Assembly (NCBI GenBank): GCA_013214575.1
Contig: JABSSD010000038.1
Location: 1-47,969 of the forward strand
Direction of reading: 5' to 3'
Length of the DNA: 47,969 bases
Source of the DNA: Paracoccaceae bacterium
Lineage (GTDB): Bacteria > Pseudomonadota > Alphaproteobacteria > Rhodobacterales > Rhodobacteraceae
In this document: positions 22,793-27,935 of the stretch, piece after piece
Position numbering within the stretch: the stretch's first letter is position 1
Layout: the number at the start of each line of letters is the position of its first letter
Notes under the pieces: model-generated
The model's database searches: none
What the model saw: the letters and a program-made list of their open reading frames with translations, nothing else
What the model was told of the DNA's origin: nothing
Made by a program: the position numbers and the translations under genes

Positions 22793-23176
22793 TTACCCAA
22801 CTGATATTAACAGAAAAATCGCGTACCCCCACCAGGTCAAACTGTTGATTAACGCCAGCAACACCGCAAAAGAACCTAGCTCCTTGGCTGCGCCGGACAA
22901 CGGGTGTTGATCCAGTGAGATCCGGTCGATCGTAACCTCAATCGCAGTATTTAGCACCTCGACGAGCAATACGAGCAACATCGACGAAATAAGCGTCAGC
23001 GCGAGCCGCATATCCGGCGCAACGAAGAATGACGCGGGCACCAGAACCACACAGGCCAGCATTTCCTGACGAAAGGCAGCTTCGTTCGAAAAAATGTACC
23101 TGATCCCCTTGGTCGTTGACACACAGGCTACAACCAAGCGGCGAATTCCGGAGTGTTTCTGAGTACGGTTCGTCAT
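22793..23176 (-). CDS. dgkA: Diacylglycerol kinase (DgkA)
   Basis: A 127-residue membrane enzyme that phosphorylates diacylglycerol to phosphatidic acid. Three transmembrane helices and the family core are clear: NEAAFRQE (E32), VEVLNTAIEVTIDRIS (E73, N76, E80) and LSGAAKELGSFAV (K98). The residue after K98 is Glu where E. coli has Asp95, a conservative change. The gene follows the OpgB-like transferase gene on the same strand with a 61-bp gap. That enzyme family releases diacylglycerol as by-product, so DgkA would return it to phospholipid synthesis, as in the E. coli membrane-derived oligosaccharide cycle (established for that cycle, inferred here). Confidence 0.93.
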   Translation of the reverse strand: MTNRTQKHSGIRRLVVACVSTTKGIRYIFSNEAAFRQEMLACVVLVPASFFVAPDMRLALTLISSMLLVLLVEVLNTAIEVTIDRISLDQHPLSGAAKELGSFAVLLALINSLTWWGYAIFLLISVG

Positions 23177-23237
23177 CTTCGAATGCCCCTAAACCAAGAT
23201 TGCGCGCATCCCGCCGCGATGCCGGGTTTGGCGCAGG

Positions 23238-24887
23238 TCATACACCACCTGCCGCCACGCCACTCCATAGCGTTTTCGACAGCTCAATATCCACGCTAAG
23301 ACGCTGGTTGATCACATCAACGCCAAAACGCTCAACCAAAGTCTCATCGTCTCGCAACAGCGAAACCCCCAGTCCCGCTCCCGGATCGTCGGTGGGCAGC
23401 CAACCGATCCAATCAAGGATGGTGGGAAACAGGTCGAGCATGGATCCGGGCTTGTCTATATGGGCGGGTGGTTGATCATCCTGAAGGAAAATCACGGTGT
23501 TCCGGCGGTCAAATTGTTCAAGCGTGTCATAGGCGCTGTTGTGGTGGGCCAAGTGATCGCTCAGCACGACGATCTTGGTATTGGTACCCGCTGTCTTTTC
23601 TTTCAATTGGCGCACGAACTTTGCTGCCAGCGCCGAGGTGCATCGAACGGCGTCGATGATATCTTGGGTAATGACTGGCTCGCCCAGACCCAAACAAGAA
23701 TCCGACCGAAAGGCGCGCGGGCCATGTGTGTCCATCGTTGCAACGGTCAGGAAAAACGGTTGATCATCACTGAGAAGTTGATCAAGCACGTTCAACGCAT
23801 GTTCCATCACCAGATCATCGCGGTAGCCCCAGCCAGACCAACCACGGTCAATCATTTTGGTTTCACCGAATTCTTCAGACAAATCAAAACGGTTAATGAA
23901 CTGTACACCGCCATGGCTGTTGTAAAAATTCCCATAGCCAAATTTACTATTGTTTGCGCCCGCGACATCATGACTACTCATATAGATATTTTTATACCCC
24001 CGCGCTGCAGTCAGGTCCGACATGCATACCGCCTGGGGAACAATGGGGTCATAGTTCGACCAGCCATTCATTGCGCTAAAGACGTTGCCCATCATCGGCA
24101 CGCCGCATTGTGTTGCAACCGTCCCTGCAAGGCTCCAGCCGGTCGCATAGATCTGATGAATGTTGGTCAGTTCTAGATTCGCCTCACCCAGCTCTCGTAT
24201 GGGTGCGTAGGCATCGCCAAAGCCGCTGGTCTCTCCGTAGGTGCGCTCCAGCCCTTCTAGGAAGACATAAATAATGTTGGGGTTGTTCTTGCCCGTCGTC
24301 GCGGCAGTTGGCTGCACCTGATTGTAATCTGCCGCAAGGGACTCTTGTTGCCCAAATTGTGACAACCCTTGGCTTTGCACCACGTCCACAATCAGCGGAT
24401 TGATGGCCAGAATACCCGCGCCAAAGGCCAAGTTGCGATACCGGAGGCCTGCCATCCAGGGGCGCAGACGCAGGAATGTGACAGACAGCGCCAGCCAGTA
24501 CATGAAAGTTGTAAAAACATAGGGATTGATTTCACCCCAGGGCGTGCCTTCGACCCCAAAGACCCAGTGGAACACAAAGGCCGCGACGTCCACATTGCCA
24601 AAAATCAACGCCGTCACCGTGATCGGAAAGATCAAAACAATTGCGATCAGCCAGAACACCCAACCGGCTTCGAACCGATACAGGCGCTGCCCTTGCGGCC
24701 CAGGTGCCGACACAAGAAGAGAAAGACCCAGGATCACTGTCATCCCTACGCCGTAGCGAATGTCGCTTGTGTCATTGTCCCACAACGCCCGCAGGATGAG
24801 GTACAGGGCGACCAGCCCGGGCAGGAGGATAGAGATAAAGCGCAGGCCAGCGATAGCCCATCGCAATAGGGAAATAACATTAGCCAT
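23238..24887 (-). CDS. OpgB/LtaS-like phosphoglycerol transferase
   Basis: A 549-residue protein with about four or five N-terminal transmembrane helices and a periplasmic alkaline-phosphatase-superfamily catalytic domain. The first metal site is in IIYVFLEGLERTYGE; the segment SLAGTVATQCGVPMMG closely resembles the E. coli OpgB (MdoB) run around ASQCGIP; the final metal site is VVLSDHLAHHNS. Such enzymes transfer phosphoglycerol from phosphatidylglycerol to periplasmic glucans or teichoic-acid-like polymers, leaving diacylglycerol. ATG 24887 was chosen at the start of the first hydrophobic segment; the frame is open 20 codons further. No glucan synthase genes (opgGH, ndvB) are in the window, so the acceptor is unknown. 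Confidence 0.83.
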   Translation of the reverse strand: MANVISLLRWAIAGLRFISILLPGLVALYLILRALWDNDTSDIRYGVGMTVILGLSLLVSAPGPQGQRLYRFEAGWVFWLIAIVLIFPITVTALIFGNVDVAAFVFHWVFGVEGTPWGEINPYVFTTFMYWLALSVTFLRLRPWMAGLRYRNLAFGAGILAINPLIVDVVQSQGLSQFGQQESLAADYNQVQPTAATTGKNNPNIIYVFLEGLERTYGETSGFGDAYAPIRELGEANLELTNIHQIYATGWSLAGTVATQCGVPMMGNVFSAMNGWSNYDPIVPQAVCMSDLTAARGYKNIYMSSHDVAGANNSKFGYGNFYNSHGGVQFINRFDLSEEFGETKMIDRGWSGWGYRDDLVMEHALNVLDQLLSDDQPFFLTVATMDTHGPRAFRSDSCLGLGEPVITQDIIDAVRCTSALAAKFVRQLKEKTAGTNTKIVVLSDHLAHHNSAYDTLEQFDRRNTVIFLQDDQPPAHIDKPGSMLDLFPTILDWIGWLPTDDPGAGLGVSLLRDDETLVERFGVDVINQRLSVDIELSKTLWSGVAAGGV

Positions 24888-25389
24888 CAAATTTCTTTCT
24901 GTATAATCAGTTCGCCAGCCGATCGCTGTAACGGCGGATCCTGTCAAGGTTACAGCCCAGCGCCTCCGCGCTCAATCGTTAGTCGAATATCTTTCTTGCC
25001 TATCTGCCAGCACATGCCCCGTATTGAAGCCAATTTCAGTAAGTTGTGCCCGATGACTTGATCGCAAATCGCTGACTTCTGCTTGTCCGTGAAAATACTC
25101 GACGACGATACGTCATGGCAGACACTCCATCTTTGACGAAAGACTAAAGTGTTGCGTCGACCCGTTGAAACGTAACCGCTCAACCGCTCAGCAGACCTTG
25201 GCGCGAGGTGCAGCGAAGGGCGGCTGTCCGCCCTTATTGTCGATATGTGCATGGTGCAGCAATTGGGCCACTTCACTCACTCATAAATGTAGCGAACGGC
25301 CCAGATGAGACATTCACCGTCCATGTCGACGCGGCACTGCAGCATTTCAATCGTGGAATGACGCCAGAGCGGACACAGCGAGCCTTTTG
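24888..25389. other. Gene-free region holding one copy of a 92-bp repeat
   Basis: About 500 bp upstream of the OpgB-like gene and downstream of the VanX-type gene. No convincing protein is encoded. It contains a dispersed repeat copy (25211-25302, separate entry) and should also hold the promoter for the OpgB-DgkA transcript. Confidence 0.4.
25211..25302 (+). repeat. Dispersed repeat, copy A
   Basis: Begins CAGCGAAGGGCGGCTGTCCG and ends AACGGCCC. By hand alignment without gaps it matches copy B at 27749-27840 at about 75 of 92 positions, in the same orientation. The blocks ATGGTGCAGCA and CATAAAT are identical in both. It lies just beyond the 3' end of the caspase/VanX operon. The divergence shows the copies are old. 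Confidence 0.75.
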
Positions 25390-26088
25390 TCAATGTCGCT
25401 TGGCAATCGGAAAATCAAAGCTGCGCCCCTTAAATGGTTCATTTCTAAAGCTGAAATGCCACCACTCTCTCGGGTAATTGCCAAACCCTGCGCGGTCCAT
25501 TGCTGTTATCAAGAACCGGCGATTTTGCGCAGCACCTTCGGAAATTTGCTTTGAGCTCGATTGGCTTTTCAGATCGAAGAAATCGAATTTGGTACCCATG
25601 TCCAACAGCGTTATTTTGCCTAAGGTTTTACCCGCGATTGTCAGATCTACGGTTCCACCCGCAGAATGCCCGGAACGCGAAGCAATATAGCCTTTTGGTA
25701 TAAGCTGATGTGACGTCAGGTTCGGAAAATAACTCTCATCCGAAACATCCTGCGCGGTGACGTAATCTACCATTTCACGTACCGCACGTGCGGGACGGTA
25801 ACAGTCAAGAACCACCAGCGTTAAGCTCTTTTTTACCAGCTCTCTTTGCAAAGAGGATAGAGCTCTGGCTGCTTTCTCGACCAGTATACAGTCCGGAGAG
25901 TGGTACCCGGCAAGGGGTTTACCGACAAAATTATTATCTGTCGCATACCGAATATCCTCAACAATAGACGCATCAATATCTTGCAGATACACAAACCCAG
26001 CGGGTAGATCGGCGGCATTGGCTTGAGGCGCCACGAGGGTCAGCAAAATTGAACAGGTAATTCTACAAACCCGCGACCCAATAGTCAC
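25390..26088 (-). CDS. VanX-type D-alanyl-D-alanine dipeptidase (peptidase M15D)
   Basis: A 232-residue exported zinc dipeptidase. A signal peptide (about residues 1-25, ending PQANA) precedes the M15D domain. The full catalytic set seen in VanX is present with matching spacing: R98 in DCYRPARAV, zinc ligands H141 and D148 in SGHSAGGTVDL, catalytic E208 and zinc ligand H211 in REWWHF. The enzyme should split D-Ala-D-Ala, in the periplasm given the signal peptide. The gene overlaps the caspase gene by 4 bp (ATGA), so the two are translated together. Unlike van clusters there is no VanH, ligase or two-component system nearby; a role in peptidoglycan turnover is more likely than resistance. Confidence 0.87.
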   Translation of the reverse strand: MTIGSRVCRITCSILLTLVAPQANAADLPAGFVYLQDIDASIVEDIRYATDNNFVGKPLAGYHSPDCILVEKAARALSSLQRELVKKSLTLVVLDCYRPARAVREMVDYVTAQDVSDESYFPNLTSHQLIPKGYIASRSGHSAGGTVDLTIAGKTLGKITLLDMGTKFDFFDLKSQSSSKQISEGAAQNRRFLITAMDRAGFGNYPREWWHFSFRNEPFKGRSFDFPIAKRH

Positions 26089-27542
26089 TGAAGCCGCAAT
26101 TCGCTTATTGCGGTGTCACGGTACCTGGTTCCTCTGTGCACACCGGTCAGGGTCAATGTTATCCAGTTGACGTCGCCCAAATATGGTATGTTTAACACCT
26201 GAAACCTTCCGCTATCTACAACTTGAATATCGCCCTCGAAACCGGTTGAAGTCCGCACCTTGAATGATCTCACCCGGCTATTCTTCATGTAGGCACTTTT
26301 ACTTTTGTTGTAGCCGTTTGCGATCAGAATTTCATTTATGGTGGTTGGCCGCTCAAACGAAAAGCGCAAAACTTCACCTATCCCGTCGCCGGTCTCACCT
26401 TCTACCCAGGCAGTGTTCATATTACCGTCAGCCAAATTGTCGCCGCTGTATGTATTTCCAGATTGCGTGCCAAGGACCGATGAAACGCAGAGCTTGCTCT
26501 GGATGGTGCCAAATCGCCGTGTATAGCACTCCCGCATGCGAATATCGGGCATCGGTAAATGGCGCGCGGCCTGCCCTACAGGTTCTTCCAGTCTGGAAAG
26601 TGCGTCGATGGCCAAAACGACATAAAAGTTATCCGGAATATCCTGATAATCGTTCAGGAACGCTCTCCAGGCTGCGCTGCTGTCAAGCCGTTCGGCCAGT
26701 GCGTATTTGCTGGCTATGGCATCTTCGGTAGGCACAAAAACTGTTGAACTGGAGTTTTGCGCCGGTTGGCCTTGCTCTGAATGGAAATAGAAATCCCCGG
26801 TTATTGAGCTGGTTTCCCATGGAACTTGCTTGTCGCCGGTGACGGCCAGCACCTCGCTTCGGGCTGTTTTGAAAACGGATTCGATGGTGCGTCCTCCGCC
26901 AGAGGAAATCGCCGCGGTAAGCGCTTTGGTATAAGGCGAGTTCTGCCCCGCTCCGTCAAGCGCAACAGAGCCAGGAGCCGTTGCATAGGCGATAAGGGTC
27001 CCTTTTGGTGCGTCAACCGATGCCAGCCCCCTTGATGCGGAGCGCGAAGACCCGACGAAGGGATTGTTGCGGCAAGCGTCCAATATGATGATGTTGATAT
27101 CGGCGTTTGAAGAATTCATGACATGAAGGAAGTTGTTTACATTGATCGCCTCAAGATCAATTTCATCCTCGTCGAGGATCTGCGCATTAACGGGAACCAT
27201 ATAATTCTCACCATGCAGCTGAACGCCATGCCCGGCATAATAAAACAACCCCGCATCAACGTTGTCCTGCCGCAGACGCCGCCCAAATTTCAGCAGCTCC
27301 CTTTTCATCGTCACCTGATCTGCATTCACCAGCTTGGTCACGGAAAACCCCGCATCGCGCAGGGTGCGGGTCATTAATATCGCGTCATTTTCCGGGTTGG
27401 CCAATGAAGATGTGTGCGTGTATTTTGAGTTGCCAATAACCAGGGCAACGCGGTCCCCGGCCAAGGCGCCGCTGTTCCAAAAGGTGAGGGTCAGCAGGGC
27501 AACGATGGCTGTTCCAATAGCGTGTATTACTGCTTGGGTCAT
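26085..27542 (-). CDS. Exported caspase-like protease with C-terminal discoidin-like domain
   Basis: A 485-residue protein. A signal peptide (about 1-29) leads to a C14 caspase/metacaspase domain (about 30-250) with RVALVIGNSKY, the catalytic His in YYAGHGVQ (H105) and catalytic Cys in IILDACRNNPF (C157). After a linker (about 260-340), residues about 350-485 look like an F5/8 type C or NADase-type glycan-binding fold (DNLADGNMNTAWVEG, then IGEVLRFSFERP). The domain order suggests a periplasmic or surface protease that binds a glycan. It is first in a two-gene operon with the VanX-type dipeptidase. Metacaspases cleave after Arg/Lys; the target here is unknown. Confidence 0.85.
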   Translation of the reverse strand: MTQAVIHAIGTAIVALLTLTFWNSGALAGDRVALVIGNSKYTHTSSLANPENDAILMTRTLRDAGFSVTKLVNADQVTMKRELLKFGRRLRQDNVDAGLFYYAGHGVQLHGENYMVPVNAQILDEDEIDLEAINVNNFLHVMNSSNADINIIILDACRNNPFVGSSRSASRGLASVDAPKGTLIAYATAPGSVALDGAGQNSPYTKALTAAISSGGGRTIESVFKTARSEVLAVTGDKQVPWETSSITGDFYFHSEQGQPAQNSSSTVFVPTEDAIASKYALAERLDSSAAWRAFLNDYQDIPDNFYVVLAIDALSRLEEPVGQAARHLPMPDIRMRECYTRRFGTIQSKLCVSSVLGTQSGNTYSGDNLADGNMNTAWVEGETGDGIGEVLRFSFERPTTINEILIANGYNKSKSAYMKNSRVRSFKVRTSTGFEGDIQVVDSGRFQVLNIPYLGDVNWITLTLTGVHRGTRYRDTAISELRLQ

Positions 27543-27935
27543 TGCGCTAAACTCGCCTCTTTTCTGGTTTTAAGAGTGTCAGACCACCGCCATTTGACCA
27601 AGCTTTTTCTCATAGCTCTCCAGTCCTATGAAACGATGTATCTGGACTATTGCGCCAACTCGACCCTGTCGGCGCTTCAAAAGCAGCGCCCAGCCGCCTC
27701 AGGAAACTTGGCATAGAGTATCCCCACCGCAGACATTGCTGCGACCCACAGCGAAAGACGGCTCTCCGCCCTTCTAGCCGAAATGTGTATGGTGCAGCAC
27801 TTGGGTCGCTTCACGGGCCCATAAATATAGCAAACGGCCCGCTGCGGAGCTTCGTGACCACTGAGGTGAATGGCTGGCCAGAGCCAAACCTACCGTCGCA
27901 CGACTGGTCTGTTTTTCGGCTGTAGCCTGATAATT
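27543..27935. other. Gene-free region holding the second repeat copy
   Basis: About 390 bp between the start of the caspase gene and the 3' end of the MFS gene. It should contain the promoter of the caspase operon. The only clear element is the repeat copy at 27749-27840. No convincing protein is encoded on either strand. Confidence 0.4.
27749..27840 (+). repeat. Dispersed repeat, copy B
   Basis: Begins CAGCGAAAGACGGCTCTCCG and ends AAACGGCCC. It is the partner of the copy at 25211-25302, same length and orientation, about 82 percent identical by hand count. The pair brackets the caspase/VanX operon as direct repeats about 2.5 kb apart. Confidence 0.75.

Follow-up and report, generated by a model that had tools for sequence, protein, structure and literature searches.

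A recurrent overlapping gene pair for a caspase-like protease and a VanX-type dipeptidase in alphaproteobacteria, with a possible role at the cell wall

When a gene for a caspase-like protease overlaps a gene for a VanX-type D-Ala-D-Ala dipeptidase, one may ask whether the two form a functional unit or are merely neighbours kept together by shared ancestry. The question is raised by a contig of 47,969 nucleotides from a Paracoccaceae bacterium (assembly GCA_013214575.1, contig JABSSD010000038.1), the whole of which is referred to here as the window and which is contig C151 of a 5.59-Mb genome. The initial annotation of this DNA described the two genes as an island that couples two exported enzymes, proposed a cell-wall-directed function and knew of no described system that pairs them. 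We find a real unit that recurs between genomes, is undescribed within the reach of the literature searched, and is made of parts from known families.

The two genes and their products

Both genes lie on the minus strand, that of the caspase-like protein (485 residues) at 26085-27542 and that of the dipeptidase (232 residues, GTG start) at 25390-26088, and they overlap by 4 bp, the stop codon of the former and the start codon of the latter sharing the GTGA at 26085-26088. The pair and its overlap are as initially annotated; the span then given, 25211-27840, was slightly too wide, with ends that fall within a dispersed 119-nt repeat outside the genes. Judging from the sequence, translational coupling through the GTGA overlap is likely, and candidate starts giving the same 4-bp overlap are found in L062, L063, L064, L066, L078 and L220. 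A scan for promoters and terminators gave no clear excess over shuffled sequence (4 versus 3.1; 2 versus 3.4). Within the genus both genes are under purifying selection, the ratio of nonsynonymous to synonymous substitution rates being about 0.12 for the caspase gene and about 0.25 for the dipeptidase gene (three comparisons each).

The caspase (C14) domain occupies residues 31-252 (26787-27452, minus strand; PF00656, 147.4 bits against a cut-off of 21.4, E = 7e-43). Its catalytic dyad, H105 and C157 as initially named, is invariant across nine aligned C14-discoidin proteins, and across 30 pairs the Cys is kept in all and the His in 29, with one gap. At the other end of the protein, residues 348-483 (26094-26501, minus strand) form an NADase-type discoidin, or F5-8 C, domain, also in line with the initial annotation, which matches PF25302 (NADase_transloc, 113.6 bits against 27, E = 1e-32) and NCBIfam NF047619 (NADase_discoid, 138.8 bits against 38, E = 1e-40) and is a putative glycan-docking module. 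Within the PDB the caspase domain is closest to MALT1, by sequence and by structure, and in a sequence alignment Asp53 and Asp155 fall on two MALT1 acids that we take to line its Arg pocket (S1). Because of this alignment a preference for Arg or Lys at P1 is predicted, with Asp53 and Asp155 as possible S1 acids; Asp155 is present in 29 of the 30 pairs (Glu in the other) and Asp53 in 22, with eight gaps.

For the dipeptidase, a member of M15D (PF01427, 126.7 bits against 27, E = 1e-36), a search of the PDB sequence set with an E limit of 1 gave VanX (1r44) alone. The predicted model (predicted local distance difference test score, pLDDT, 84.8) superposes on 1r44 with a template modelling (TM) score of 0.93 and a root-mean-square deviation of 1.8, and LdcB, VanY and VanXY score 0.50 or lower among the 50 matches listed. 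VanX R71, S114, H116, D123, E181 and H184, which we take to be its active-site residues (the zinc ligands, the catalytic Glu, Arg71 and Ser114), correspond to R98, S139, H141, D148, E208 and H211 here, and all six are kept in 30 of 30 pairs. With the caspase dyad also in place, both active sites are complete, as had been claimed, and D-Ala-D-Ala activity is predicted for the dipeptidase. The signal peptides initially assigned to both proteins take the form of hydrophobic, signal-like starts, ending in ALA in the caspase-like protein and in ANA in the dipeptidase, as read by eye only.

Besides this signal-like start, the dipeptidase differs from VanX in a sub-cut-off score with the NCBIfam VanX equivalog NF033115 (164.7 bits, cut-off 320), and the idea that the locus is a vancomycin-resistance cassette is not supported by that score. 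It also differs in a pair of cysteines, Cys67 and Cys96, where VanX has Ile and Gly; each is present in 135 of 137 M15D proteins, and the two may form a disulfide in the exported members. Cys67 is missing only in L262 and L263, which lack the cysteine pair altogether; in L262, Pfam identifies the gene directly upstream of M15D as a D-Ala-D-Ala ligase, an order that resembles a VanA-VanX arrangement.

Recurrence of the pair and exchange of its partner

We looked for the pair in the genus, the family, named genomes, a second alphaproteobacterial order and an even draw across the class; these surveys share genomes, so their counts are not additive. Three of eight congeneric genomes carry both genes, adjacent and overlapping, and other caspases are present in all eight. 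One of the three, G005, has the same neighbours as the window on both sides, and in another, G006, the neighbours are different. The homology between the window and G006 covers only the pair and 119 bp upstream of it (25388-27661, 90% identity; the upstream part, 27543-27661, lies 5' of the caspase gene on the minus strand and is kept with the pair at the other locus). Thus, the pair moves as a unit. G006 also has a second, broken caspase-like gene directly upstream of its pair (L048:12320-13690).

Among 394 genomes of the family, 19 had a VanX-type match, eight of them strong (E below 1e-20) and 11 weak. A caspase gene lies immediately upstream in five of the eight strong cases (G000, G029, G041, G128, G374), a ClpP-like gene with an SH3-like end accompanies two (G106, G331) and G024 has neither; the 11 weak matches are all without a caspase within flanks of 1.5 kb or less. 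Named genomes gave at least 570 relatives, and in the best 80 of these loci a same-strand caspase gene was immediately upstream in 10: four in Tabrizicola and Pseudotabrizicola, and the others in Nitratireductor, Afifellaceae, Cucumibacter marinus, Methyloceanibacter and two unclassified bins. Only three of the 80 have a caspase at another position (L078, L090, L102), and in L102 (789-8793, Cucumibacter marinus) four caspase genes stand in a row with the dipeptidase gene between the third and the fourth. In the second order (397 genomes centred on G756, M15D at 1e-30) M15D was found in 89 genomes, and inspection of all 89 showed a caspase immediately upstream in 19, from nine families. The class draw covered 385 genomes (M15D at 1e-25, flanks of about 1.5 kb, 30 loci of 32 places) and gave M15D in 26; since at most seven candidates per genome were scored in it and in the second order, the M15D counts of both are lower bounds. 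The pair is therefore not confined to this strain, and neighbours differ between loci. As a unit it recurs but is sparsely distributed, and M15D more commonly stands without a caspase. In six loci (L092, L099, L121, L133, L090, L247), from Mesorhizobium-type genomes, an unpaired M15D gene follows a gene of about 700 codons whose product resembles, by eye, penicillin-binding protein 1C.

Has the pair been inherited from a single origin, or was it assembled repeatedly? On a quick tree of 137 M15D proteins, with branch support from the Shimodaira-Hasegawa-like approximate likelihood ratio test (SH-aLRT) only, the caspase label is clustered (0 of 500 shuffles gave as low a number of changes) and at the same time requires at least 10 changes, gains or losses, five of which are forced by well-supported branches. 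Not included in the tree are the class draw, the weak matches from the family, several duplicates and, from the collection scan, the rows of Pseudomonas and actinobacteria; G990, truncated at a contig end, is counted as unpaired, and L252 was labelled by hand. Pairing seems to have arisen more than once. One such event can be seen in G889, which falls among Bradyrhizobium rows and carries an entire caspase-discoidin gene on a segment of 1.6 kb, the flanks being 84 to 94% identical to six relatives without the segment. Since the sequence of one of these, G756, at the insertion site is recognisable in four of the other five, the solo M15D state is most likely ancestral there, with the caspase gene a presumed insertion. 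At the junction in G889 the two genes overlap by ATGA, and the dipeptidase also differs from those of the relatives in its signal-peptide part. Caspase and dipeptidase distances are correlated over 30 pairs (r = 0.62, 0 of 5000 permutations; from 34 caspase-labelled rows, with three near-duplicates dropped and L252 missing).

The upstream partner varies at both of its ends. A discoidin domain closes the caspase in, among others, the window's genus, Nitratireductor and Methyloceanibacter, and one or two SH3-type domains take this place in Tabrizicola, Cucumibacter, Afifellaceae and family f206. The Methyloceanibacter protein L111 ends in discoidin, yet the five caspase domains closest to its own among the 29 others (49 to 52%) all come from SH3-type proteins. 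Four loci have an upstream protein with the usual SH3 or discoidin end but with a first part that is not a caspase: this part is ClpP-like in L056 and in L052/L081 (weak matches, below the cut-offs of the ClpP models), trypsin-like in L224 (PF13365, E = 4e-13, above cut-off; discoidin-type end, with possible start codons that overlap the upstream stop) and without an assigned family in L265. Seven M15D loci of the second order (one gene being counted in two loci) also match a custom SH3 model; Pfam listed no SH3 domain in the two M15D proteins of this kind that were tested (L177, L130).

Caspases occur in other settings in these genomes as well. In three congeners without the pair (L049:4639-12425, also L050 and L051) a caspase-discoidin gene belongs to a cluster that also encodes another caspase and a large protein. 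By Pfam, L049 has a YARHG-domain protein between these, and its large protein has cytochrome c and DUF4384 domains. Another caspase of the window's own genome, with Sel1 repeats and PG_binding_1 (L277:4019-5518), stands beside chemotaxis-type genes (named by eye).

As for the surroundings of the pair, copies of the dispersed 119-nt repeat flank it at 25184-25302 on the downstream and at 27722-27840 on the upstream side (no strand assigned). The two are 77% identical, and the upstream copy gives 29 matches genome-wide, itself included. The upstream copy is absent from the same site in the sister genome G005, although the pair is present there, and this absence gives the repeat the look of a small mobile element; in four folds its RNA shows nothing unusual (z from 0.29 to -1.93). 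Being dispersed, and missing on one side of a pair-bearing sister locus, the repeats do not delimit the two-gene island of the initial description, which is inaccurate in this detail. The two nearest downstream genes are, by Pfam, of the sulfatase type and a diacylglycerol kinase (upstream genes were viewed by eye only). At 22793-24947 the membrane sulfatase-type gene, which is lipoteichoic acid (LTA) synthase-like, adjoins the kinase gene, an arrangement that would fit phosphoglycerol transfer. We rejected these genes as further members of the system, because the LTA-synthase-like gene is present only in G000 and G005 of the eight congeners and the pair of G006 has other neighbours.

What the pair might do

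The reading we favour, tentatively and at somewhat less than even chances, is of a periplasmic protease and D,D-dipeptidase acting as a unit on the cell's own wall. One message from the two-gene unit would give two exported enzymes. The caspase-type protease would dock on surface glycans or on the wall through its C-terminal discoidin domain, or elsewhere an SH3b domain, and would cleave, with Arg or Lys at P1, proteins of the envelope by which the wall is held or guarded; the VanX-type D,D-dipeptidase, its Cys pair possibly disulfide-bonded, would share the periplasmic space and remove D-Ala-D-Ala freed there. The outcome would be controlled remodelling or dismantling of the wall under stress. 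A link to the wall is supported by the SH3 domains of many partners, by the SH3-like stretch on some M15D proteins and by PG_binding_1 on another caspase of the genome. The cell-wall-directed function first proposed gains from the recurrence of the unit in at least two alphaproteobacterial orders and from discoidin and SH3b docking-type domains that fit it, and it stays a proposal. A bolder version, rather improbable in our view, is a modular periplasmic switch in which an M15D core has had docking proteases (caspase, trypsin-like, ClpP-like) plugged in repeatedly, the caspase triggering wall dismantling or death from outside the cytoplasm.

Several observations weigh against the favoured reading. 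Five of the eight congeners have neither orthologue, 70 of the 89 M15D genomes of the second order lack an upstream caspase (these include G990, cut by a contig end, G1062, with a caspase tail to tail, and G793 and G797, with another partner), and in the class draw only the window's own M15D gene has a caspase beside it. When only the 392 distant comparisons are taken, the distances of caspase and dipeptidase correlate weakly (r = 0.21). Partner proteins of the window's family match SH3 models weakly, four of six reaching a Pfam cut-off and two falling short; stronger matches came from the proteins tested in the second order. The predicted caspase model is only moderate (pLDDT 73), and we are aware of nothing that would supply the periplasm with free D-Ala-D-Ala, which makes the substrate of the dipeptidase doubtful. 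The initial annotation had reasoned that if one gene is regularly absent while the other persists with a different partner, the coupling has no functional meaning. M15D does often occur without the caspase, but where another partner stands, in four loci, that protein again carries a terminal SH3 or discoidin domain and in three of these loci looks like a protease, which argues for coupling rather than against it.

The strongest rival is nutrient scavenging, in which proteins and wall debris of dead neighbours are digested by an exported protease and dipeptidase and then imported as amino acids. Its strength lies in the replaceable protease-like part (caspase, ClpP-like or trypsin-like), which would suit general digestion, and M15D without a caspase being commoner than with one also speaks for it. 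Nevertheless, we consider it unlikely: docking domains are unnecessary for scavenging, caspase-type enzymes whose S1 pocket is acidic cut selectively and are not digestive, and VanX-type enzymes, whose narrow fold the dipeptidase has, are of narrow specificity. If instead the pair left the cell by secretion or contact and damaged the walls of competitors, its signal-like starts and glycan-type docking domain would be expected, as would a patchy distribution and the different locus in G006, as for competition genes. Such an attack is quite unlikely, since neighbours differ between loci and neither an immunity gene nor a secretion system was noticed in the neighbourhoods, where no dedicated search was made.

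Bacterial caspases occur in defence, and the caspase-like protein weakly matches a PADLOC caspase model (E = 1e-9), so one may also consider an anti-phage or abortive-infection module with a caspase executioner. This we regard as very unlikely, given that no PADLOC model matched the dipeptidase (only the pair was scanned), that both proteins have signal-like starts and that neither has a Pfam match to a sensor, NTPase or death domain. When viral contigs were scanned by pattern, a single, distant relative of the dipeptidase came up, with no caspase within its 4.7-kb stretch, and a phage origin of the pair is likewise not supported. The least credible account, to which we give hardly any weight, is that the genes are chance neighbours kept by shared ancestry. 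It would agree with the clustering of the label on the M15D tree, but not with the changes forced on that tree, with the insertion in G889 that has its own 4-bp overlap, with the pair being all that the window and G006 have in common, at another locus, or with the replacement of the partner in four loci.

Relation to known systems

Each half of the unit has relatives elsewhere. MALT1, the paracaspase nearest to the caspase domain in the PDB, is a human signalling protein that is not known to have a discoidin domain or a dipeptidase partner. The discoidin-like family PF25302 is named for the translocation of the streptococcal NAD glycohydrolase; here no NADase domain was matched, and the domain sits on a caspase, or in L224 on a trypsin-like protein. 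Closer in composition are the bacterial metacaspases or orthocaspases (C14), which have the same caspase domain and His-Cys dyad, some being reported with an N-terminal helix that is possibly a signal peptide. A 2012 survey of prokaryotic caspases describes, in its main text, caspases that carry wall-binding domains, four fusions to a peptidoglycan amidase, those to Amidase_2 included, and one operon with an amidase (PMC3501461). Unlike in those cases, the partner here is a VanX-type dipeptidase encoded by a separate overlapping gene; the words dipeptidase and SH3 do not occur in the main text of that survey, supplements excluded. The Microcystis caspase homologue MaOC1 is reported to have a linked neighbour and flanking direct repeats, as here, the neighbour being a toxin-antitoxin module and not a wall enzyme (PMC7935541). 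Literature searches on caspases with D-Ala-D-Ala dipeptidase, VanX, SH3 or periplasm, judged by titles and the starts of abstracts and with most subscription journals not covered, turned up no description of the pair, in agreement with the initial annotation.

To our knowledge, the function of most bacterial caspases has not been established, and they are mostly discussed as cytoplasmic actors. The recurrent overlapping-gene link to a wall enzyme gives these proteases a testable place of action, the periplasm, together with candidate substrates, in marine and soil bacteria that we do not know to be pathogenic. For VanX-type dipeptidases with export signals, it provides a likely context other than antibiotic resistance, their usual setting. 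In some alphaproteobacteria, the pairing points to caspases that act on the bacterial cell wall.

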